Assembly: GCA_921293015.1 (NCBI GenBank)
Contig: OV121088.1
Location: 17,769,645-17,833,644 of the forward strand
Direction of reading: 5' to 3'
From: Phorcus lineatus
Taxonomy: Eukaryota; Mollusca; Gastropoda; Trochida; Trochidae
DNA: 64,000 bases
In this document: positions 3,009 through 62,751 of the stretch, piece by piece
Layout: each line of letters starts with the position of its first letter
How positions within the stretch are numbered: position 1 is the stretch's first letter
Made by a program: the position numbers and the translations under genes
The notes under the pieces: generated by a model
What the model saw: only the letters and a program-made list of their open reading frames with translations
What the model was told of the DNA's origin: nothing
Databases searched by the model: none

Positions 3009-3179
3009 CGAATAAAAAATATTTATATATCTTTTATAACTTAAACTTAACTTAAAACAATATTTTAAAGTCTTTTTAAACGTCAGTCAGCGTGTATTGT
3101 ACAAAAAACTTAATAAATTGAAAATGAGTTAAATTATTCACTGAAACACTAAAATCAGAACAGAAAAAGTTGTTGAGCC

Positions 3180-13885: not shown

Positions 13886-14112
13886 GTTTTCAACCATTCT
13901 TGATAAGCACATTATAAAATTGTCAACTCATCTGTCATTCTTCAACATAGGCACTAAATATTCTAGAGACGAATGAACCGATGACTTTATTTTTCTCTAT
14001 CCTTTCCTAAGCCAATCTGTTCTATAAAATCCTCTTCAAAACATGACAATATAAAAAACCTTTAAACGAGTTACTATTACGTTTCATGGTAATAAAAAAA
14101 GAACTTTGGCAG

Positions 14113-15013
14113 TATTAAGGTGATCTATTTCTATAAAGTACTTTAACTGTAATAAGGTTATCCATTTATATAAAGTACTCTAACTAATAAGTTTGTCCAT
14201 TTATATAAAGTACTGTAACTGTTATAAAGTGATCCATTTATATAAAGTACTGTAACTCTTATAAGGTTATCCATTTATATAAAGTACTTTAACTGTAATA
14301 AAGTGATACATTTATATAAAGTACTTTAACTGTAATAAGGTTATCCATTTATATAAAGTACTGTAACTGTTATAAAGTGATCCATTTTTATAAAGTACTG
14401 TAACTGTAATAAGGTTATCCATTTATATAAAGTATTGTAACTGTAATAAGGTTATCCATTTCTATAAAGTACTGTAACTGTTATAAAGTGATCCATTTAT
14501 ATAAATTACTTTAACTGTAATAAAGTGATCCATTTATATAAAGTATTGTAACTGTAATAAGGTTATCCATTTATATAAAGTACTTAACTGTAATAAGGTT
14601 ATCCATTTACATAAAGTACTTTAACTGTAATAATGTTATCCATTTCTATAAAGTACTTTAACTGTAATAAGGTTATCCATTTATATAAAGTACTGTAACT
14701 GTAACAATGTTATCATTTTATATAAAGTACTTTAACTGTAATAAGAATATCCATTTATTTAAAGTACTTTAACTGTAATAAGCTTATCCAATTATATAAA
14801 GTATTGTAACTGTGATAAGGTTATCCATTTATATAAAGTACTTTAACTGTGATAAGGTTATCCATTTCTATAAAGTACTGTAACTGTTTTAAGGTTATCC
14901 AATTATATAAAGTACTTTAACTGTAATAAGGTTATCCATTTATATAAAGTACTTTAACTGCAATAAGGTTATCTATTTATAGAAAGTATTGTAACTGTGA
15001 TAAGGTTATACAT
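14113..15013. repeat. 37-bp minisatellite, 24 copies plus a partial
   Basis: Tandem array with unit GGTTATCCATTTATATAAAG + TACTTTAACTGTAATAA (37 bp). I counted 24 full copies and a decaying 25th that ends at about 15013. Two subtypes occur at the unit start: most begin GGTTATCC, while five (about 14230-14540) begin AGTGATCC or AGTGATAC. In that subtype the junction with the preceding unit reads TAAAGTG, which matches the NK2-class TNAAGTG motif. Copies differ by a few substitutions and one 1-bp deletion. There is no coding capacity. Confidence 0.95.
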
Positions 15014-15099
15014 TCACTGTAATTGCTTCAGGTTTCTTCCAAATAAGTGCCTCAGATGTTTGACCGCAATGACGTAACAGTAAGAATGTATTTCCTACC

Positions 15100-15260: not shown

Positions 15261-17029
15261 ATTTTATATATACTTGGTTGGGTAGAATTTATGTATTGAA
15301 ATATATTAATAAGATTCTGCACTGAGGTGAGCTCCAGTAATGCCTAGATCGAGCGAATTATAATTCTTAAACTAGACATTTACAAAGATAGACTGACTGA
15401 TGATTTTTTCAAAATTCCCTCGGAAAAGAAATAAAATGTTTTCGGCGTATATTGGTTTTAAACAAATCATCCAGATACGTGATACTTTTTAATGTTTGAA
15501 AAAGGTATGATTTTCTATTCAGAAATTAAGTCAAACCATTTGTTCATAATTAAAATATCTTTTCACAAGAAACAATGACCAAAAAAACCCAATAATTTAA
15601 AAACATGTTTCTATGTTTGAAACCAAAGTCGGGAAAAATTAAACGTACGTTATTTTCGAAATAACGAGATAAACGCAAATAACAGAACCTGGTGCTACAA
15701 TGAAATCTTGAATGAAAGTTAAAACAGGGCTATGGGAATATCAGCTGTCCAAGTTTCGTAATTGAAGAGATTTCAGATACTTTCTTTTATTATCATCTTT
15801 ATTTAGTTGCTTCGAAATTTAGATGTCAGAGTGGAAATATTGGTTTAGATATTCCGTATTCATTCCGAAGGATGATTAAATATACGCACTTTATGAAAAA
15901 TAAACATTTACAGAAAAAAGTAGTAAGTAAATCAAAATTTGTATTCATTTGTTGAGGGGTGAATATATCTACTGCTCTGATATGACGTGCTGGCAATGGT
16001 GGCTGACTATTAATGTGTGGATTTGAATCCTGCATGTGCTCGTCGTCAAATGCACAAATACACAAACTGCAGTGTGAATATGTTCTACTGATTATTGTCA
16101 AAATATACTTTCATACAAGTTTTTGGAACAAAGTGTTTAAACTGGATGTTTCGTTTAAGGAATACAAAGAACGGTAAACCAAGACGAAACTTATGTTGTA
16201 TGGTAAAGTCTTTGCTGATGTCAATGTCCCTTTAAGACACGCGCCTGATCTGCGTGTTCAGGAAGACAGAAGGAAGCTGGTAGGATATCTTCCAATGTGT
16301 TCCCTGTGTGTGTATCAGACAGACGGATACATCTTCTTATCGATACACCGTACAGACAGAACACACCGCGCAGGTCAATGTAGACTGACACACATTCTCC
16401 TTGACAATATAAATCAATTTTGACAGCACTGATTGAAACAGTAGAGCAAGTTGCATTGATTTAAGTTGCGCCTAGTGGTTGCCCTTGTTGTATTGCCAAA
16501 GTACGATTGAGGTTGTACTATTTGATGTTAATAGCCTTATCCTTAGTATAAGAAAAACAAAGTGAGTTGAGCATTTTTTGTGTATAATCCACCTAGACAC
16601 ATGTTGATAAACTGACCAAAAATAAAAACTTGACACTAAGTTTTTCTGGCACAAAAAAAAATTGTTTTAAATCAAGTATGTTGTGCAAAGATCAATTGGG
16701 TATGATCAGAAGACATAAACACATAATCACGTCTGTATTTAACTTCGGTAACGTTAATGACGTCTGAATACCCTCCTAAAGGAATTTCGCAGAATGAAGA
16801 GAATCGATCTGAGGTGATTAGTAACGATTTTGTCCACCTCTTGCGTCTCGTACAGCAACACAACGTCTCCTCATGAATCTTAGAACGTTAGTTAGTTAAC
16901 TTACATCTGCCATATTTCAATAATCGTCAACCAGATTTAAGCAAATGTCACAATCTGTTAATATGTAAAGATAAAAATGTGCTTATGAAAATATCGCTCT
17001 TTGTTAAACACGCACTATCGAAAATGACT
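15261..17029. other. Intergenic, no gene recognised
   Basis: Mostly AT-rich. A somewhat GC-richer patch at about 16190-16400 holds a 76-codon + strand open frame (16193-16423) without recognisable domains. No repeat structure seen. Confidence 0.35.
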
Positions 17030-50994: not shown

Positions 50995-51358
50995 ATGGAA
51001 GTGCGAAACCAGACGACAGTTTTAACTTCCTTTTCCATTGACCATATCCTAGACAGGAGGGAAAAAGAAGACCAAACACTTTCAAAACAGAGTACTTTGT
51101 CAGAACTTCATGGACTCGACTTACGAGTTGCTTCTGAAATCTCCGACTGCGGGAGTCGGTTGTCTTGTAAGTCAAACGAGGAAGGGGATTTTTCGGATGG
51201 GGACTCCAGCGTTCTTACTGACCCCTCCAGTCCCGCCACTTACTGTGAGTCAAGCAAGGACCTGGACATTTCAATGGTCAGCGACAGTGAGGGCGATAAC
51301 GAAGATGATGACGACGACTTAGATGTAGAATCGTGTGACGTCACAGACATTCAGAAAG
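50995..51358 (+). CDS. NK3: NK3 / bagpipe / Nkx3-type homeobox gene, exon 1
   Basis: First coding exon of a homeodomain transcription factor of the bagpipe/Nkx3 family, known for roles in visceral mesoderm and skeletal patterning. The ATG at 50995 is the first Met codon after an in-frame stop at 50932; codons 1-121 are in this exon. Residues 11-19 (TSFSIDHIL) form the TN/eh1-type Groucho-binding motif at the position expected for Nkx3 proteins. Residues 98-111 are a highly acidic stretch (DSEGDNEDDDDDLD), also typical before an NK3 homeodomain. The exon ends AAAG before the donor GTTTGT (51359-51364), leaving one base of a split codon that matches the phase of exon 2. The frame stays open into the intron to 51630, but that part looks non-coding. 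Confidence 0.9.
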
Positions 51359-54300
51359 GTTTGTGCCGTTTTTTTACATCTCTTAAATGTATTAACGGTA
51401 CCAATTTTGAGATTTGCTATTTTGTATCGTGTTGTATATTTGCAATCAAAGTTTTATTTAAGCAGGACAAATCCATAAAACATTTATTGACAAAAGGATA
51501 TATTTATATTTCTTTATTGGTGTTTTTGCGTCATGAAAAGTTGCTAGTAGTTTTGGTAGTTATTTTGATGTCAAAAACATTTTTGTGTGTGACACTTTTT
51601 CGAAAATATAACAGTTTTAGATTCATATAATCTTATATAATTTGATCTCGTTTGGGTTTTTAAGAACGTCTATCTATTTTGCGCTAGTAATACTTGCTCT
51701 ATAGTTTCATGAAGTCGCAATTATATTGAAATAACTACTTTTGTGTCTTATTAAAGTTGGACTATAGATATTCAAGATACTAATGTGATGCTATTTAAAT
51801 AGGATTTAAGATAGAATATTGTCAATGCTTCAACAAAAATTTATTAGAAAATGTAGTCGCTGAAATCACCATGTTGCAATTTAGGTTAATTATTACGTGG
51901 TTCAAGCAAGAATTGATGGGTCAATGAGCAACAACTATTTAAGAAATATATTTGTCACAATGATCTTATTGTTTAACTCTAACTTTTGCCAAAATGTTGC
52001 TCACACATACGAATAAGTGTTATCATAAGTTCGGTCAATATCATATCATAACCAATAAGATATTTCACTGTTGATAATAGATACATGACAAAATAATATC
52101 CAATGATGTATGATTAAGCCGATTCGTTTAGTCCTAGTTTTGAGTAATGTCATTTAATAATCGAAATATAAATGTCATATTAAGAACTTTCGAATGTTAC
52201 ATTCTTGACATGCTATGGTGTATTGTTGCCATCCTTATAATCTTATGAAGAAAGAAAAATGCTTAACAAATAAAGCATGAAAATATATCCAAATTTATAA
52301 CGTGTTCAGTAATAACGATCAACGCTTTCTTTCGAAATGCAAAGTTTTCATATTGTTAAATGTGTAATGTATATGTACACAGGACGATTTGACATGATGT
52401 ATATCGACACGAGCTTGAAACACACATGACAGCTTCCTTATCACTTTAACACATGTGTATTTCAATCTTAGATTCGGTTGAAATTGAAGCGCCTGTGAAA
52501 GATCTGGCAGCGGCATTTTGAAAACGGCAGTGAACGAGATTTTGAAAATCCAAAATAAACAATAGAATTTTTTTTATAAAAGGACACCGAAGAGATCATG
52601 AATTTAATTAATTTTGCAGCTTTCCTTTGAGGATGTCTCATGTGAGGTCAAAGAATTAACCATTCTTTAAAAAATTAAGATATAAGGGTAAAAGTTGCAT
52701 GTCAATCTGTTCGTGTACTTAAAATTTTCTAAATTCTAGTTTTCATTTAAAAATGATAATAATGTTACTGAATCTTTATCTTTCGATTTGTTTCATTCAC
52801 TGCTGTTATACGGATTTTTATTTGATACTTTCTAATATATTGGAGAGAGTAGTTTTCGGTTGTGATATATATAATATATATTACACATGAACACATATCA
52901 ATGATACGAAATATTGAGATAAATATACGATATGAAATGAGCTTTAATAACATCAAATTCAAAACTTAAGATATAAAATGCACTTTATATCAGTTTTTAT
53001 GAGCACGATACCCATAATTCCGAAACGTAACATTTATGCAAATACATAGTATAACAGCAATGCTTTTCGATAAGTTTTCTGCAACATTCTTTTTTTACAG
53101 TTAAAATGATTCAATGAGAGTTAGATACATTCTGAGACTTCATTGCAGACAAAAACAGCTTATTTTAAAACAGTTTATCGTTCCTAAGAATGAACTCTTA
53201 GAAAACTTGAAAAGGGAATAAAGGCTGCTACATCCAGCTAAACGCTTCTCTCTTTGGATTTAAAATATAAACTGATAGAAAGTTTATGTTCAAACAAGAA
53301 ATAATAAACAACCCAATATTTTATAAGATACCTTTTTTTATCAAATGACAACCTACTGTACCTAAGATTTCCTGTTACAGTTAAACAATCTAACGTCAGG
53401 TCTCTATCAGTGAAGAGCATTAGATAGGGGAGGTATCAAATATAAATGGAATTGACAGCTGTGTATTGATTTATATATCGACTGCTCTGTAATCGACATA
53501 GACGATTCATATTATTTAATTGGACATGTACGTATAAACGAACTTGCCCTGTGGAATGAAAAAAATGATTTATTAATATTGTTGCTTTTATCCGCACGGG
53601 CATGAAAGCAAAAAGCTGAAATCATTATTCATTTCAAATGTCATATGTAACTAAGTTTGACCATATAGTCAGATTTAAAAGTCCTTAAATAATGATAAAG
53701 AATCAATTTTTCTAGAGTAACGTTTTGGCTAAATTTTAAATTAAAAAGTGATATCATACGGACGTTTTGAAACACTATTGAATTTTTTCGGTAGATCATT
53801 GTCGGTAGTGCGGCCTTGAAATTAGATAAAGTCTAGGCAAGTCCAAGATAAATCTTGATTGCTTTATTTCTGAAGATAAAGAAAATTCCGAAGGTTTCAT
53901 TTCCTATATTTCTTAATTCTGAATTTCGGAGAAATTTTAATTTCTGAGATACCCGTTTCAGATATCTAAAACCAGATTATTCCTTTGAACATGATGCATA
54001 ATCATTGATAAGATTTGGAAATCAGAAACCATCATGTTTGCAACACAAGACGGTGATATAGTATAAGTTTATAGCTAATTAAATAGCTCCAAGCTCCCTT
54101 GATAATTGAGAGATGATATACCAACAACATTATTTTGGTAGACATTGTAACAAATCTTGAAATTAAAAAAGGAAACCATCCAAATAGTTAGTTAGTTATA
54201 ATACATTCTAACATGACACGAAAACTAGAATGAAAATACTGCTTTCTGATTGGTTACCAAAATCAATTTTGGAGTGATTATTTCGCCGATAATCACCTCT

Positions 54301-54588
54301 AAATATTTACGACCGATTCACATTCATACGCGCACGTTTACAAACTCCATTCGTTGTACTTACTGTTTTCATCGCCTTAGACAATAGCAAAATGAATTTT
54401 AAATCAATTCTATACAGACATTGAGAAAACCGTATTTTTTAATGACATTTAGAAGATAAATCCATCCTGTGATATAATTTTTTTCGAAGTAGGGGCCTAG
54501 TTTATTTTGTTATCACAAAATTTTCGGACCAAATTTTAATTTAAAACCGAGCTCGCTTCTTACCGTAACGCGCGGTAATAGCGATTCG

Positions 54589-54595
54589 TCAAGTG
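54589..54595 (+). promoter_or_regulatory. NK2-class binding motif TCAAGTG in the NK3 intron
   Basis: An exact 7-mer TCAAGTG followed by A. It lies at the right edge of a GC-richer patch (54545-54620) that includes a TTACCG...CGGTAA inverted repeat. Weaker than the three octamer sites further into the intron. Confidence 0.3.
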
Positions 54596-55062
54596 AACAG
54601 AGGGGACGTACGTTATTCTTCAACTTTCCTTCCCTTTCATCCCTCTCATAAGCTTTCTTGATAGTTTATTCAATTAGTTCACATCTTGCGTGAGAAGTTA
54701 CTGCTAGCAGTAAACAACTACTTTCAGAGTAACGTCCCTTGATTTGGTCAGTCCTTGTCGGTATTGTAGGGGTGGTAGGTGTCCTATGTATTTACGTAAA
54801 AAACGTAACTCTGATGGGATAAACAATCTGTCTTTTGTTGATTTATCCTCAATGAAATATATACTTAAGGGTTTTATTTAAAACCTGTTGGTTTATGCTT
54901 TGATATATATTTTTTTATCATTGAAGCGCGTTCTTTGAAAATGAACTGTACCGTAGTTTCGAAAGCAAGTGGAACCGGTCTGTGCTGGTTCGACCTAATC
55001 ACATCGTTGTTGCGCAAGGCGAATTAGTTCCTCATATGATTTCTAATTAGTCATGTTAGAAT

Positions 55063-55226
55063 GGAGATAAATCCCTTCTGTTTTTTATTTTGGGGTTGTA
55101 TATCGTGCATTTTTCACCCCTAAATTAACATTTCAAACCGAGCTTGCGAGGTTTGAAATGTTAATTTAGGGGTGAAAAATGCACGATATACAACCCCAAA
55201 ATAAAAAACAGAAGGGATTTATCTCC
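55063..55226. repeat. Perfect palindrome: 77-bp arms, 10-nt loop
   Basis: The left arm 55063-55139 and right arm 55150-55226 are exact reverse complements over all 77 bases, separated by GAGCTTGCGA. I compared the two arms base by base. Arms begin GGAGATAAATCCCTTCTG. There is no coding function; a minus-strand open frame running through it is incidental. A perfect match means the structure is recent or homogenised. It could be a fold-back MITE, or if transcribed in the NK3 pre-mRNA, a long perfect dsRNA hairpin. No clear target-site duplication is visible. Confidence 0.97.
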
Positions 55227-56029
55227 TAAGTAATTCATTTGCAAAGCTTTATTCTTAATCTTGCAATTTAACGAGTAGTAAAACGAAAACATCAAAGCGT
55301 AAAGTTCTACATAAAATATATATTCACCTTTGTGAAATCGTCTATGAAAGTAACAAATGTAATTGCTTGTAAAATTACACTTGAGGAAAGATTTGATTGA
55401 CATTTACACGGGGTTGTAGATTGCTTGTGATTGATGCGCCGACAGCTTGGACTGCTATCTACAAGGTGAAATACACATCACCTGTCACTTTGCACGCGCC
55501 CTGCATGCAGCAAGTGTATACAATTGTAAACAGCTGGGAATTTATTGCTATAAAATTATCAAAACATTTTCTATTGACCCGGCTAATCTTTTCATATTGT
55601 AAATCACTGTTTGTATTAAACAATAGTAAAACTATTCTGATTCGATATTCAGCAATCATCTCTATTTCCTTGTGTTTTAATTGTGCTTTTCAATAACTTA
55701 ATTATTCAAATTCATTGTAATAGTATCCTTTCTATCTCTGCCTGGTTTTAAAGAAAAATATTTAAGTTTTAAAAATATATCCATCTCTTAATTGAATATG
55801 TTATATTGTTTGAATTCGTAATCGAAATTAATCGATTTAGGTTTCTTAAAAAACAGCATAATCTCCCATGGCATTATCAACAGGATCAACCTATAAAAAT
55901 CAACTCTTTCAAAACAAAAGCGAAACACTTAGAATATTACGGCAACACTATCAAAGATAAGCTAATAAATCAGGAATCAAATGGCAATATTTCTTAACAT
56001 GATATCTCTTAAACAGTTATCTGATTGAC

Positions 56030-56200
56030 CACCTGGTATTGTCCAGTTCTTGACCACATGTCCAAGCCCACGCTGTCTCAAACCAGCACCCCACTCCCCA
56101 CCCGTCGTAGCGCCACCTCATACATCATTCTACCTGGTCTATTACCACTTGAACGGGTTGTTAGGCAGGGATGCAGTTAGGGGTTATCTTGAATGTTTGA
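56030..56200. promoter_or_regulatory. Intronic GC-rich island with a Tinman-type octamer
   Basis: A C-rich block of about 170 bp carries CCACTTGA (56145-56152), the reverse of TCAAGTGG, the preferred NK2/Tinman site. It is one of three such octamers in this intron. Candidate NK3 intronic enhancer, inferred. Confidence 0.35.
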
Positions 56201-58729
56201 AAGATATGATGAGATTTTCACACAATGTCTCCATAAATTACGCTTTTACAGGACGCGAGCATGTTTTATTGATTTATTGTCACTACACTCTATCATAATG
56301 AACGCCATATGAACATTAAAAAATAGATGCAGTTATGAGTTCAAACAATGTTGTTCTTCGGATTATGACTAAAGGTTGTGATCAAATATTTATAGCTAGA
56401 ATATAATTTAATCTCAAACTCACAAGGTCACATATAAACAATTTTATTTGTATCAAATATTCAGAATCATCCAAATGAAGATTGCCATACCATCATAATC
56501 TTTGATTGTAAGTTTCCCTACAAAATAACGTGATGTATCTAAAATGGTCTTCATACATGTTTTATTGCGAAAAGTTTTTCATTAAAAAGTTTGATAAACT
56601 GTTTTTTTTCGAGACATGGAAAGTATTTACTCTTATTCCCGCTTAATGTACAAAACTGATCGTGGTCGCTTTGTAAAAAAGTCACATTACACACCCGTTC
56701 ATGTCATAACCTGCAAGTTTTGTGCCAGCATAACACAACGTGATGTAAGTAAAGATGTGACGATACATGAACTCTTTGGAGTATAATTTGATTTCTCCCT
56801 CTTTCTCTCTGCTTTATTAATGACTGTATGTGTATGTAAACAGTGAAATGAATTGCTTTAAAACCTACCCAGGTTGATGAGCCATGTTTTAACACAATAG
56901 TAACATTAGTAACGAAGAAAGCTAAATTTTGACATTGCGGTAATTGAAATGCTAACTTTTGATATTTGTTTAAGCTGCGAAGAAACGATTAAGATAATAC
57001 TGCACATATCAGTTGGAGTTGGAAAATGAATGAAAACCGCAGCAAACACACTTACACGGCAAACGTGCAAATAAGTAATGACGGGTTGATCTGCACTTTA
57101 CCAATGAAGTGTTGATTGTCTTAAAACCGTGTGAGAGATATAATAAACAAAAATCCGTAAAATAAAAACTCTAACTAATCAACTAATTGTTGTATTTCAA
57201 CATGCTTAAATTAAGAATTTCATTAATATATCCCCAAAATTTCTGATAAATTCTACAGCTGTCAATTGATTTTTTAATAGTGAAAGCTACCATTAATATC
57301 AAGGAAGAGTGACAAGATGTGATATTTTCACAATTTAAAATACAGGATTCCGTTACTGGTCACCATGCGCCACTCGTGAAATACAGGATCTCATTGTCAT
57401 ATCATTCGTTTGATTTAAACTGATATTTGACTTACTTCCTTATTTTCAGTTTCCAGTGATTCAATTTTCCATGGCTAAGTTTTAGGACGGTCACCTACAT
57501 GTAAATCAAATAGATCTGAGTGCAAGTTTCCACAGACTTCCATAATAGTTACAACAGCACAAGAGGATTGAGAACCCTTGTAAAGCGTCATGTTCCATTT
57601 AAACGTCTCTAATTGACCGAGACAGTTTAGGATCAGACAGAACAAGGATAAGACACGGGGAAAACTAGAGATGATTTCAAATGAGGCGGGTAATGGACGC
57701 AAAGACGCCACTTTTTCTCAGAGAACTCATTCAAACTAGAAATACTCTCTTAAGAATCCCATCAAATTTCTTGTAGACCTTAAAAACACAGTAACTGTTC
57801 TTTAATATACACGCCCAAAAACTAACCAGTCCACGACGACTTAATGATAATGTTCAAATTTTCTTTCTTGAAAATTAAAATGTGATATTCCTAAATGTTA
57901 AATAGGGTTAATATTCATATAATGTACTTTCTCCCAGAGCGCTGTACTCCTCGTGAGTTTTAATCCTTTTTTAAACAAAATTAAAAACAGACTTTACAAT
58001 TACCAAAAAGCATATATATTTTGCTTCCAATTACATTTGTTCACAAAGAGACTGAAATTAACATTTTATCAAAACAGCACTTGTTCCTGGTAGTCGGCTA
58101 AAGAACTATACTATATCAAATGTGCCATTTAATTATCACATTGAAACATGCATTTTTCGATAATATTATGTTATAATAAACTTCTACTTTGACATTTTGT
58201 TAATTGCATATTTGAATTGAATATGAAACTGTTCAATGCATTCCTCTAAGTGATGCTGAATTTATTTTTTGCATCGTGCCATATCATGACACTTTGTTCT
58301 TGTCTCGTTCGCTAATATATATTCTTATCAAATCAAATTAATACATATCATGCGTCGTATATTAGTTTGAAAATTATAAACACTGTTCTGGTTTGTTCCT
58401 CAGTGTTATGTTGCCAAATCTTTTGTATCATTTTTACTTTATTTAGTTTGCTCACATCATTTTTAAATTATATTGAAAGTTTACATAACTATGCAGTGCT
58501 GATTACATCTTCCATATAATGGTATTGACGTGAATCTGAAATTATTGTGCCCTTCCCTAAAAGTACGGCAAAAATATATTTCGGATCATTTTCCTGCGTG
58601 ATCATTTACATATTAATGTGACATTAATACCAAATTTTCGTAAAATTAAAAACTGCAGAATCTGTAAATCAGATCGCTGTTTGAATATACATGGGCACAA
58701 CAACATTGTTTAACTAAGACAAACGATGA

Positions 58730-58910
58730 AGAACACTTTCGTCAGTTCTTGGGAGGAATGCTTGAAGAAATAAAGCATTCTGCATCTGTTCTTGATCACG
58801 CATAAAGTCTCACGCAGTATTGCCACGGGCTTGCAGTGTCTTGTGCACGCAATGTATGCTTTTGTCATCATCATTCGCTCTACGTGCACGAGTTCAGTTT
58901 TTGCATTGTC
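58730..58910. promoter_or_regulatory. Intronic GC-richer island
   Basis: Balanced composition with GCACGCA, ACGTGCACG and CACGCAG elements, including a GTGCAC palindrome repeated in two places. Candidate regulatory element by composition only. Confidence 0.25.
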
Positions 58911-59839
58911 AATGTTAACATATGTTTGAGAAAGTCACCAGCGATGTTCGCTTTCTTTGCTTAATGCATTATATGCCTGATAGTGTGATAACAATGGGTA
59001 TATAGGGGATGGTGTCGTTTTCAGTTATGTATGCTAAAATTGATTCTCTAAAAATTGTGTCAATTGTATATTAACAATGCACTTGCACTTCCAATGTTTT
59101 TATTTAAATCAATTATTGAAAATTATTAGACTTTTTGTTTATGAAATGTTAACATATTTATATTTTCTAATTGATTTAAATTCAAATATCGTCAAATAGC
59201 ATATACATGACATGATGTAATAAGAGTGGGGAAAAACTGCATACACATACACAAATGCTACTTACTGTAATCATCTCTACTGTTTCTTATTAATATCATA
59301 TCTTTAATGATTATTGGGACATCTTTAATCTAATGTGATATTTAAAAACCTCACAGTTTACCAAATAAGCAATTTAATAAGTGTCTTGCACAATGACTGT
59401 GTACTAAGATGAAAGCGTATTGTCAACAACCTTGAGATCGCCTTTCCCTAGACAAAAATACATTAAGAATTGGAAAACAAACAACAAATTCACAGGGTTG
59501 GACCAAAATGTCAACGAAAACTGTTTCAAGGATAAATTTTCTTTCCGGAAGTAGATGGCAATGCCACATTATTGAACAAAAGTACATTAACGCAACGATT
59601 TATTAAACAAGAGATGGAATTTTATATCAAATTACTAATGTAATTGTTGGATTGATATTTCTACTTTCTTGCTGAATTAATCATACAATTGATTGCCTCC
59701 CTATTCAATTTTTTAAACTTTATGTTAATGCAACTAACTTCAAGTTTCGTGGAAAGAAAAATTATCTTCCTTCGCTTTTACTTAGTTTACAAATATAGAT
59801 TTCGCCCATGTGTTGGTTGATGTCAGATTTTACAGTAAG

Positions 59840-59950
59840 GTGCAATCGATCGACCATCACTTGCCGTGTGCTAATCGCAACACTGTAAGCCACACAGTGG
59901 GCAGTCACACACATGTGCAGATCTATTTCACTTTGTCGCTTTTCTATCTG
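59840..59950. promoter_or_regulatory. Intronic GC-richer island
   Basis: A short block with GCTAATCGC (homeodomain/Otx-like TAATC core), CACACATGTGCAG (E-box CATGTG) and CACTTGCCG. Candidate regulatory element, weakly supported. Confidence 0.2.
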
Positions 59951-60323
59951 TAATTAACAATCTTCTCTGTACAAGATAACCTAAACAGATGTTCTATTTG
60001 TCGATTTCATCACCTAAGAAATATATCATAGTGTGATAAAGGTTGAATTAAATGGAACGAAGTAATAAACCACATGGTAAAAGAGGAGTTATCATTTATT
60101 GATGAATAGAGCAAATTAAAAAATTATTTTTATGTTATTTTCAATTACCAGCACTTGTACCTTTTGGTTTCAGAAACAATGAAAACGTTATATTATCACT
60201 GTCGTAATAACATTAATTGGTAACACGGGAAATAACAGTTTTGAATAAGACTTATAGTCTTTACGGTCAATTGTTCATTATACAACTATAATATATATAT
60301 ATAACAGTTGTATAAAGTGGTTG

Positions 60324-60374
60324 CATGTATGGCCTGAAGAGGCTCGTTGAGCTGAAAGCGCTAGCCATTATATG
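60324..60374 (+). ncRNA. Hammerhead ribozyme-like motif (type I)
   Basis: The sequence fits the hammerhead core. Stem I 5' strand CATGTATGGC (60324-60333) is followed by CTGAAGA (60334-60340, matching CUGANGA). Stem II is GGCTC-GTT-GAGCT (60341-60353), closed by a G-U pair, then GAAA (60354-60357). Stem III is only AGCGCT (60357-60362), self-complementary, then U-A as the UH cleavage site (60362-60363). The stem I 3' strand GCCATTATATG (60364-60374) pairs with the 5' strand by five pairs, one bulge and five pairs. Very short palindromic stem III is known for hammerheads of Penelope-like elements and retrozymes. A 9-bp inverted repeat (60279-60287 with 60306-60314) and TA-rich runs flank it. 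The G-U pair at the core may weaken activity. It is probably a remnant of a retroelement in the NK3 intron. Confidence 0.6.
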
Positions 60375-60879
60375 GATTGTTTTTACTTCTTACTTCATAT
60401 TTGTCAATGTATATATATATATGTTTTTCATTCCTCAATGGAGGGTATATGTGCGGTGACTTACGTCATTATTACACTATAGTCACACGTACAAACTCTC
60501 AAACCAGAATATTAATAAAACTTATCAAAGGTTATAAAATCAAATGAAGTATTCACAACTGCATTTGTTTAAGATTAATACGTTTTATTTTAATTTGTAA
60601 TGACGGTAACAATTATAAAATTATATATAATTTATTTTGATAATTTTAGACCGAAGTATTCAGCAGGAAAATTCGATCACTTATTTAGATCAGAATGTTA
60701 TCTCGCAAAATGAACATATGTACATAAGTACATCGGCACTATCCCTTTAAAAGTTTCGGATGTAACAATGACATATTTACAAGAAGGGTGTACGTGTGTC
60801 TCTACGTGTTCAGGTGTATGCTATCATGCCAATCTAGTAAAGTGAACTTCTGAAACACTTTTAATTCTTGACAGTGGCT

Positions 60880-61220
60880 ATCAAATCTCGAGAGGTTCCC
60901 ACTAACAGTGATCGGAAATCAGCCACTGCTCTCTCGTGACCTCCCGCGAGATCTCGCTGTCACAGCGACATCTATCTGTCACTCAAAACGAGGCTATTGG
61001 CCGACATTTTCTTTTGCCAATCGGTTGTTAGACTTTAAGGTATTTTGACGATTGTATTGATCACCGTTGGTCTCACGGAGTAGATAAAACTGGTTCGTAT
61101 TTAGTTCAACACTAGACTCACTCGGTGAAGTGTTTGAGAAAGAGTCCATTCATAAGAATTAGATAGTTTCTTGTGATAAGGCTTGTATGACTAACAGATA
61201 ATGCCATTTCCCACTTGAGC
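60880..61220. promoter_or_regulatory. Intronic GC-richer island with a Tinman-type octamer
   Basis: The block at 60890-61120 is among the most CpG-rich in the intron (CTCCCGCGAGATCTCGCTG, paired CCAAT-like GCCAATCGG at 61016-61024). Just after it, CCACTTGA at 61211-61218 is the reverse of TCAAGTGG. It lies 1.1-1.5 kb before the homeobox exon. Candidate enhancer. Confidence 0.35.
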
Positions 61221-62012
61221 TTGACACTGATAGTAGTTTTTAAAAAAAAATTCAAATACAGGATTTGACGTTTTCCCTAAACATGATTTTTCTAGAATTG
61301 TAGAAGGAAAAGTGATTTGAATGCCCATACCTTCTGTGCTTGATCCCAGGCCTTTCAATAAGTTTTTTTAACTAGACGTGGCAAATACTATTCGAAAAAT
61401 TCGTTTGATTGTCCTCCTTGAAGAGCATTTAGGATTGGAAGTGATGAAGAATTACGACACTTTTCTTCCTTTTATTGTCTCATTCAACTGCTCAAGAGTG
61501 GCAAGTGTCTGTATAACCTTTGTTGATCAACCTTATTTGCAACAATGCCGAGATAACCAATGTGATTGTAATTATTCGCGCATGAGACTTTTCAAAAGAC
61601 AACTGGTCGGTTGGAAATTTGTTTATTATCCATATATGCCAAACTATTTGTTCTGTTCACTGTACCTTTTAAAAACAGCAGATTTGTCTAACTGTTTTAC
61701 AGTCCGTTTCTGAACAATATATTTATCAGTTATATTGCAAAATACGGAGAAATTAGAAAACAAAACTTGTGTCACATATGGCAGTTTTAGACAAGGGTTT
61801 TATCATACTATTATGTGAAAACGACATTTGAGGAAACATTCCTGTTTTGCATGTATTTTATTCATACACGATTAAAACTCAATGCAGGTGAAACATGTTA
61901 CTAAAGATATGAATGCGGTTGCTGTAATAAAAAGAAGCACAGAATCCTTAGACAAAACAACGTAGAGAAATGAAGTGATTCATAGCCGCGTCGAGTATTA
62001 GAGGCCTTGCTA

Positions 62013-62025
62013 TGACGTCAAGTGG
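62013..62025 (+). promoter_or_regulatory. Overlapping CRE and Tinman-type site
   Basis: TGACGTCA (62013-62020), a perfect CRE/ATF palindrome, overlaps TCAAGTGG (62018-62025), the optimal Tinman/NK2 octamer, 335 bp upstream of NK3 exon 2. Overlap means the two factor types could compete or cooperate. Function is inferred from motif match. Confidence 0.4.
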
Positions 62026-62340
62026 CATTGATGATCAGTTTTATTATAAATCATTCGTTAGTTTTAGGCTCTTCTATCAATGTATATATGTTGTCTTGAT
62101 AACAGTTTTAATGAGAAAGACGGTCATCTTTCTCCACCTATTGAGAAAACAACAAGCAAGATGGTTGACCCGGAAATCGATAGGACAAAATTTTTGTCAA
62201 CATGTAGTTTGTGATAGTTTTTCGCATGACAAAAAATATTTATGTGGTGTTTTGTGGTCACCCTTGTTTATAATACAATACAACATGTTTAATATGATTA
62301 AAAATTAATAACACAAAAACGTGTACAACCAGCTATATGA

Positions 62341-62751
<411 letters not shown>

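Follow-up and report, generated by a model that had tools for sequence, protein, structure and literature searches.

A motif resembling a type I hammerhead ribozyme lies within an intron of a homeobox gene of the gastropod Phorcus lineatus, which raises the question of whether it acts on the RNA of this gene or is the trace of a mobile element. The window analyzed here is a whole stretch of 64,000 nucleotides of contig OV121088.1 (assembly GCA_921293015.1), read on the forward strand. The intron is 11,001 bp long, with the donor GT directly after position 51358 and the acceptor AG directly before 62360, in phase as read by eye. The exon from 62360 encodes a homeodomain according to Pfam, which says homeodomain only. 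The gene name NK3 comes from the initial annotation and is presumably correct. The following features make up the intron and the hammerhead.

51359 to 62359, + strand: NK3 intron holding the copy (splice sites, in phase, identified by eye; the exon that follows encodes a homeodomain)
60324 to 60333, + strand: hammerhead stem I, 5' strand (minimum-energy fold)
60334 to 60340, + strand: core CUGAAGA (sequence; CUGANGA pattern common to families B, C and D, described below)
60341 to 60353, + strand: stem II, GGCUC-GUU-GAGCU with a GUU loop (fold and family comparison)
60354 to 60356, + strand: conserved GAA (sequence and family comparison)
60357 to 60362, + strand: stem III, AGCGCU, self-complementary and loopless (family comparison and self-duplex energy)
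60363/60364, + strand: predicted cleavage site, after A17 at 60363 (hammerhead rule)
60364 to 60374, + strand: stem I, 3' strand, with a bulged U at 60368 (minimum-energy fold)

The conserved core was found in order at the place claimed in the initial annotation, with CUGAAGA, GAA and, as the NUH before the cut, U60362-A60363, which together represent a type I core. In the minimum-energy fold, stem I comprises ten pairs and one bulged U (60324 to 60333 versus 60364 to 60374) and stem II five pairs, of which the one adjacent to the core is G-U; stems I and II fold, giving a three-stem arrangement open at stem I. The self-complementary AGCGCU would pair only as a dimer, in a 6-bp helix between two RNAs, or else as a single A-U pair capped by the tetraloop GCGC; the self-duplex was computed at -8.3 kcal/mol. 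The fold also allows the copy's own letters to make another, outer stem I with six pairs. Overall, the fold was not more stable than those of shuffled sequences (z = -0.28; 70 of 200 shuffles equaled or exceeded its stability). Hammerhead ribozymes cut after A17, and the cut predicted by this rule lies 1,996 nt upstream of the acceptor on the sense strand, in agreement with the claimed position about 2 kb before the homeobox exon. Judged by its letters, the hammerhead-like motif in the NK3 intron is confirmed as real, and it is a predicted ribozyme.

A strict hammerhead descriptor yielded two matches in the window (two on the + strand, none on the - strand), one of them the motif at 60324 to 60374, and none in 20 Mb of Markov sequence searched on one strand. 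The other match, at approximately 15390 to 15458 (about 15397), has a loose stem III region of 20 nt and is probably accidental. In the whole genome, the pattern CTGANGAN{8,20}GAAAGCGCTA occurred 263 + 281 times (544 matches), while the reversed pattern gave 0 + 0. Since both the strict descriptor in Markov sequence and the reversed pattern in the genome returned nothing, the motif is more than a chance occurrence. Rfam did not report a hammerhead for the whole window at the gathering score, for positions 60200 to 60500 at E values up to 5, or for 60315 to 60385 at E values up to 10, so that the window copy lacks the significant match, such as to RF00163 (Hammerhead_1), that the initial annotation had asked for; a related family (family B, below) does match. 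A search with RF00163 against the whole genome gave 0 matches with 73 of 101,392 candidates scored and was uninformative, as no control genome matched either.

The other genomic copies with the same core that the initial annotation had called for were present in the hundreds. A 25-nt piece of the hammerhead with up to 2 mismatches matched the 958-Mb genome 691 times (reversed control, 0), and the 41-nt hammerhead with up to 3 mismatches matched 313 + 313 times (626; control, 0). An exact 30-mer did not occur in viral contigs. For a query of 201 bases around the motif, scoring of 40 of the 821 candidates yielded at least 55 matches; some were partial, and most spanned query positions 71 to 173, i.e., 60320 to 60422 of the window, at approximately 91 to 94% identity. 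Copies with this hammerhead, here named family A, are scattered over many contigs and extend upstream to differing lengths. In the window, homology begins 14 nt before the core, and blastn with seven loci of the Penelope-like elements (PLEs) described below found a single place only, 60320 to 60422. The limits of the copy and its surroundings are as follows.

60278 to 60315, no strand: palindrome centered on TA, shortly before the truncation point; its 19-nt arms are 89% complementary
60320 to 60422, + strand: 5'-truncated 3' end of a family A PLE (shared unit in genome DNA matches; long copies reaching an open reading frame with GIY-YIG; homology limit)
60410 to 60422, + strand: TA tract (repeat I5) closing the element copy on its 3' side; other copies likewise end in TA tracts

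For comparison, 57 other copies were taken from 78 alignments, leaving out partial and duplicate ones and those from the window; some loci had been retrieved by the hammerhead pattern, which makes the core appear conserved. The window copy differs from the majority of the 57 at 6 of 103 positions, all outside the core, and lacks one further base in the alignments, while the 39 nt at 60330 to 60368 equal the family majority throughout. Position 60353 is T in 56 of the 57 other copies and C in one. The G-U pair beside the core, which had been read as a sign of a dead fragment, is thus a trait of family A as a whole as judged by this comparison, and decay cannot be read from it.

Long copies revealed the nature of the element. 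In one family A locus (L035), an open reading frame ends in a GIY-YIG domain (Pfam, E = 3.4e-7), and the stop at 1400 is followed 115 nt later by the start of the hammerhead at 1515. The frame of family B contains GIY-YIG (E = 9.2e-11) together with a reverse transcriptase domain, RVT_1 (E = 1.6e-5), whose 25.1 bits are under the Pfam cut-off of 29.6, and the two frames are 55% identical over 484 positions. The reverse transcriptase of family A rests on this likeness to B, since RVT_1 was not found in the partial A frame at E values up to 1. Reverse transcriptase and GIY-YIG in one frame are therefore features of the long copies, with the B domain under its cut-off, and not of the copy in the window. 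Among NCBIfam models, the B frame weakly matched a group II reverse transcriptase (E = 4.6e-6, far under the cut-off) and the A frame none; a PDB sequence search with the L035 frame gave 0 matches at E values up to 1. A first look at the genome yielded 1,018 GIY-YIG candidates, and all 150 that were scored were over the cut-off.

Hammerheads past the stop codon were found in four families. The distance from stop to core is 115 nt in family A, 168 to 173 nt in family B (in four copies whose frame ends at the usual place; two copies with earlier stops have 186 and 374 nt), 154 nt in family C, and 108 nt in family D. Stem II consists of G-U, G-C, C-G, U-A, and C-G in A; of G-C, A-U, C-G, and C-G in B; of an A-A mismatch at the base followed by five pairs in C; and of nine pairs from A-U in D, in which stem I has only three unbroken pairs. 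Stem III reads AGCGCU in A, AGUACU in B, AACGUU in D, and AUAUGCAUAU, a 10-mer, in C, where it is mispaired in one of 11 copies (L092). The core is thus kept and stem III is self-complementary in each family while the letters of the stems change, and, apart from the A-A at the base of stem II in C, these different letters pair. An alignment of families B to E with MAFFT (E being the motif described below) did not line up the stems and GAA.

Of 30 GIY-YIG loci, 23 are followed within 500 nt by the family B hammerhead, two carry variants of it (L074 and L088), two belong to family C and have its own hammerhead (L061 and L062), and three (L068, L070, and L072) are without one. A further 20 loci were assigned by their ORF ends, by eye, to family B (7), C (12), and D (1), and the descriptor detected hammerheads in the D locus and five of the seven B loci. 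None of the 12 C loci gave a match, and relaxing the descriptor on 11 of them did not change this; the C motif was seen by eye in L089 and L092, and the pattern derived from it occurred in 10 of the 12 and in L061 but was missing in 2 of 13 C loci. The descriptor run that gave B and D set no minimum for pairing in stem III (two pairs were required in the run first showing B), so the self-complementarity in B and D was not selected by the descriptor. The match of family B to Rfam Hammerhead_1 scored 27.1 bits (E = 2.9e-5), short of the gathering score of 34, and the D hammerhead with up to 3 mismatches matched the genome 86 + 96 times (control, 0).

A further hammerhead-like motif, here named E, was observed on the - strand of L062 at 3036 to 3079. 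Its stem III reads AUACUAGUAU, it matches Rfam Hammerhead_1 weakly (19.3 bits, E = 0.011), it is tied to no family, and a 34-mer from it occurs at least three times among the matches listed for contig C1. Looser patterns also gave an excess: CTGANGAN{8,20}GAAAN{4,10}TA matched the genome 13434 + 16555 times versus 7836 + 6471 for its reverse, beyond what the described families account for, and CTGANGAN{6,24}GAAACGTH 718 + 824 times versus 171 + 192. Several matches of the latter belong to repeat families that contain a hairpin, for instance CTGATGAAGGGGGTCCAACGGCCCCCGAAACGTT, and are possibly other PLE-type hammerheads.

The arrangement of family A copies was analyzed for the first 100 of the 626 copies, all exact, on contigs C1 to C7. 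Within 8 kb, 21 neighbor pairs were present versus 0.5 expected; 17 were head-to-head, none tail-to-tail, and four were on the same strand, at spacings of 80, 1524, 3730, and 3751 bp. Such a bias is compatible with fold-back synthesis or with both target strands being primed. Several minus partners end with an extra stretch of approximately 50 nt. Tandem arrangement was read for family B only, at L087, where the ORF ends at 1773, the hammerhead lies at 1955, and the next frame runs from 2612, placing the hammerhead some 650 nt ahead of that frame as well. For family A, only the two same-strand spacings of 3730 and 3751 bp might reflect tandem units joined by a hammerhead-bearing pseudo-LTR.

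In searches with 25-nt pieces and up to 2 mismatches, the tail matched 719 times, the hammerhead 691 times, and a piece approximately 53 to 77 nt upstream of the core 299 times (controls, 0); 5' ends therefore pile up just upstream of the hammerhead. Of 18 junctions in loci derived by the pattern, 8 lie 19 to 34 nt upstream; of 38 in loci from the 201-base query (a set that is biased to window-like copies and includes the window copy), 20 lie 10 to 27 nt upstream; and of three in GIY-YIG loci, one lies 12 nt upstream. For family A, a hotspot of 5' truncation can be placed at about 10 to 53 nt upstream of the core. By eye, this region contains an inverted repeat, CAACG-CATTATC-CGTTG, from which fold-back synthesis may be primed. 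The junction of L033 has a palindrome resembling the one at 60278 to 60315 of the window.

Five of 34 distinct tails in the loci examined are without hammerhead: L046 (- strand, two places), L014, L058, and L082. By eye, they start 6 nt before the cut in L014, at the cut in both places of L046, and approximately 3 and 10 nt after it in L058 and L082, respectively. Each of the five adjoins an inverted copy, and microhomology between this copy and the L046 joints clouds the starts at the cut. With 719 tails versus 691 hammerheads, there can be only few copies starting at the cut genome-wide.

Taken with the 5' truncation, the head-to-head inverted copies, and the AT-rich targets, all of which characterize PLEs, these results make it very probable that the copy in the NK3 intron is the dead, 5'-truncated end of a family A PLE in a TA-rich stretch that has kept its hammerhead and, as a lone copy, would be silent or very weak. 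Among the options raised in the initial annotation, the PLE thus stands as a 3' end and the dead fragment as a truncated one, while the retrozyme falls away. Such a small non-coding element, spreading as circular RNA by means of PLE enzymes, would share the type I hammerhead and low GC content given for animal retrozymes in passages of PMC7229834; we consider it very improbable here and rejected it, as the long copies are coding and none of the four same-strand spacings given above (first 100 of 626 copies, up to 8 kb) falls between 150 and 450 bp. Next to no weight is left for a chance resemblance to a hammerhead. The missing Rfam match of the window copy and a fold no more stable than shuffles would suit it, yet the empty Markov and reversed-pattern controls and the comparison of four PLE families, each with a hammerhead past its stop and with different but pairing stems, led us to reject a chance match.

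A stem III without a loop points to a hammerhead that acts as a dimer. In transcripts of the element, pairing of two hammerheads via their self-complementary stems III would lead to cutting after A17, and transcripts of tandem elements would carry two hammerheads in one RNA. The lone, 5'-truncated copy in the intron is probably silent or very weak, because its stem III is loopless, blastn revealed no second copy in the window, and truncation removed the outer part of the family's stem I: in the fold of L025, stem I extends outward into upstream letters that are absent from the window copy. Little or no cleavage of NK3 RNA would be expected, and the motif probably has no special role in the gene. 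That the copy is a PLE end whose hammerhead is nevertheless active, either singly or in trans through PLE transcripts, so as to cut part of the NK3 pre-mRNA or the intron after excision, is unlikely. Its full match to the family majority at 60330 to 60368, the second outer stem I of six pairs, and the abundance of identical hammerheads in the genome speak for such activity; against it stand the three features just named and the weak cleavage of a comparable axolotl stem III as a monomer (reported in part of PMC7229834). The cleavage of NK3 pre-mRNA considered in the initial annotation is therefore unsupported, given hundreds of like hammerheads, a stem III without loop, and the missing outer stem I. 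A long shot, with even less to recommend it, is that PLE hammerheads are adapted to pairwise action, in keeping with a stem III that stays self-complementary while its letters change between families, and that the stray sense copy is cut in trans when element RNA is abundant, which, if true, would link a developmental gene to retrotransposon activity. Recruitment of the copy as a regulator of NK3 appears as improbable as the retrozyme: its sense orientation and the conserved intronic hammerheads of amniote genes (described in passages of PMC6155905) would agree with it, whereas this hammerhead recurs in copies scattered across many contigs; the six differences from the majority all lie outside the core, which by itself proves nothing. 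The dead PLE end remains our preferred reading, and the case shows that a motif in a single intron can be retrotransposon debris rather than gene regulation.

In passages of PMC7761336 and PMC6155905, PLE hammerheads are described as usually without helix III and perhaps dimeric, with their role open; their in vivo activity and role are called "still a mystery" in PMC7761336. The minimal hammerheads of PLE pseudo-LTRs treated there resemble the present ones in the type I core, the reduced helix III, the position beside the PLE ORF, the dispersed non-coding copies, and the suggested dimer action; they are usually without helix III, whereas a self-complementary 6-mer (10-mer in family C) is found here. 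The idea of dimer action could naturally be tested on the four PLE families of this one genome, each with a differently lettered self-complementary stem III. In Anolis, the Poseidon PLE named PAc likewise combines reverse transcriptase and GIY-YIG with a hammerhead in an ORF-adjacent repeat and uses AT-rich targets of which both strands are cut and extended, according to portions of PMC11167929. Its hammerhead overlaps the ORF start, in contrast to the 108 to 173 nt past the ORF stop observed here (and, in one B tandem, additionally some 650 nt ahead of the frame that follows); PAc cleavage required protein, and insertion did not require cleavage (same portions of PMC11167929).

Head-to-head inverted copies and junction palindromes are also described in the main text of a paper on rotifer Penelope elements (PMC3846280), in which the word hammerhead occurs 0 times; the optional 3' tail on one of the inverted repeats described there resembles the approximately 50 extra nt on minus partners. 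The axolotl hammerhead HHR_Amex1, as presented in sections of PMC7229834, has a stem III of one pair with a palindromic tetraloop, similar to the A-U pair capped by GCGC that is conceivable here; its monomer cleaved 6% in an hour and the dimer did so better. The axolotl and other animal retrozyme hammerheads in these sections reside in non-coding tandem repeats of approximately 170 to 400 nt, whereas those reported here reside in an ORF-bearing retrotransposon. Among the titles listed by literature searches run without the species name, none concerned this element.

Elsewhere in the window, a tandem array with a 37-bp unit and 24.9 copies was observed at 14098 to 15014. Two ORFs with a homeodomain were detected by Pfam, at 1404 to 2000 and 62341 to 62751, which we take to be NK4/tinman-like and NK3-like, respectively; an NK4-NK3 linkage thus seems to lie inside the window.
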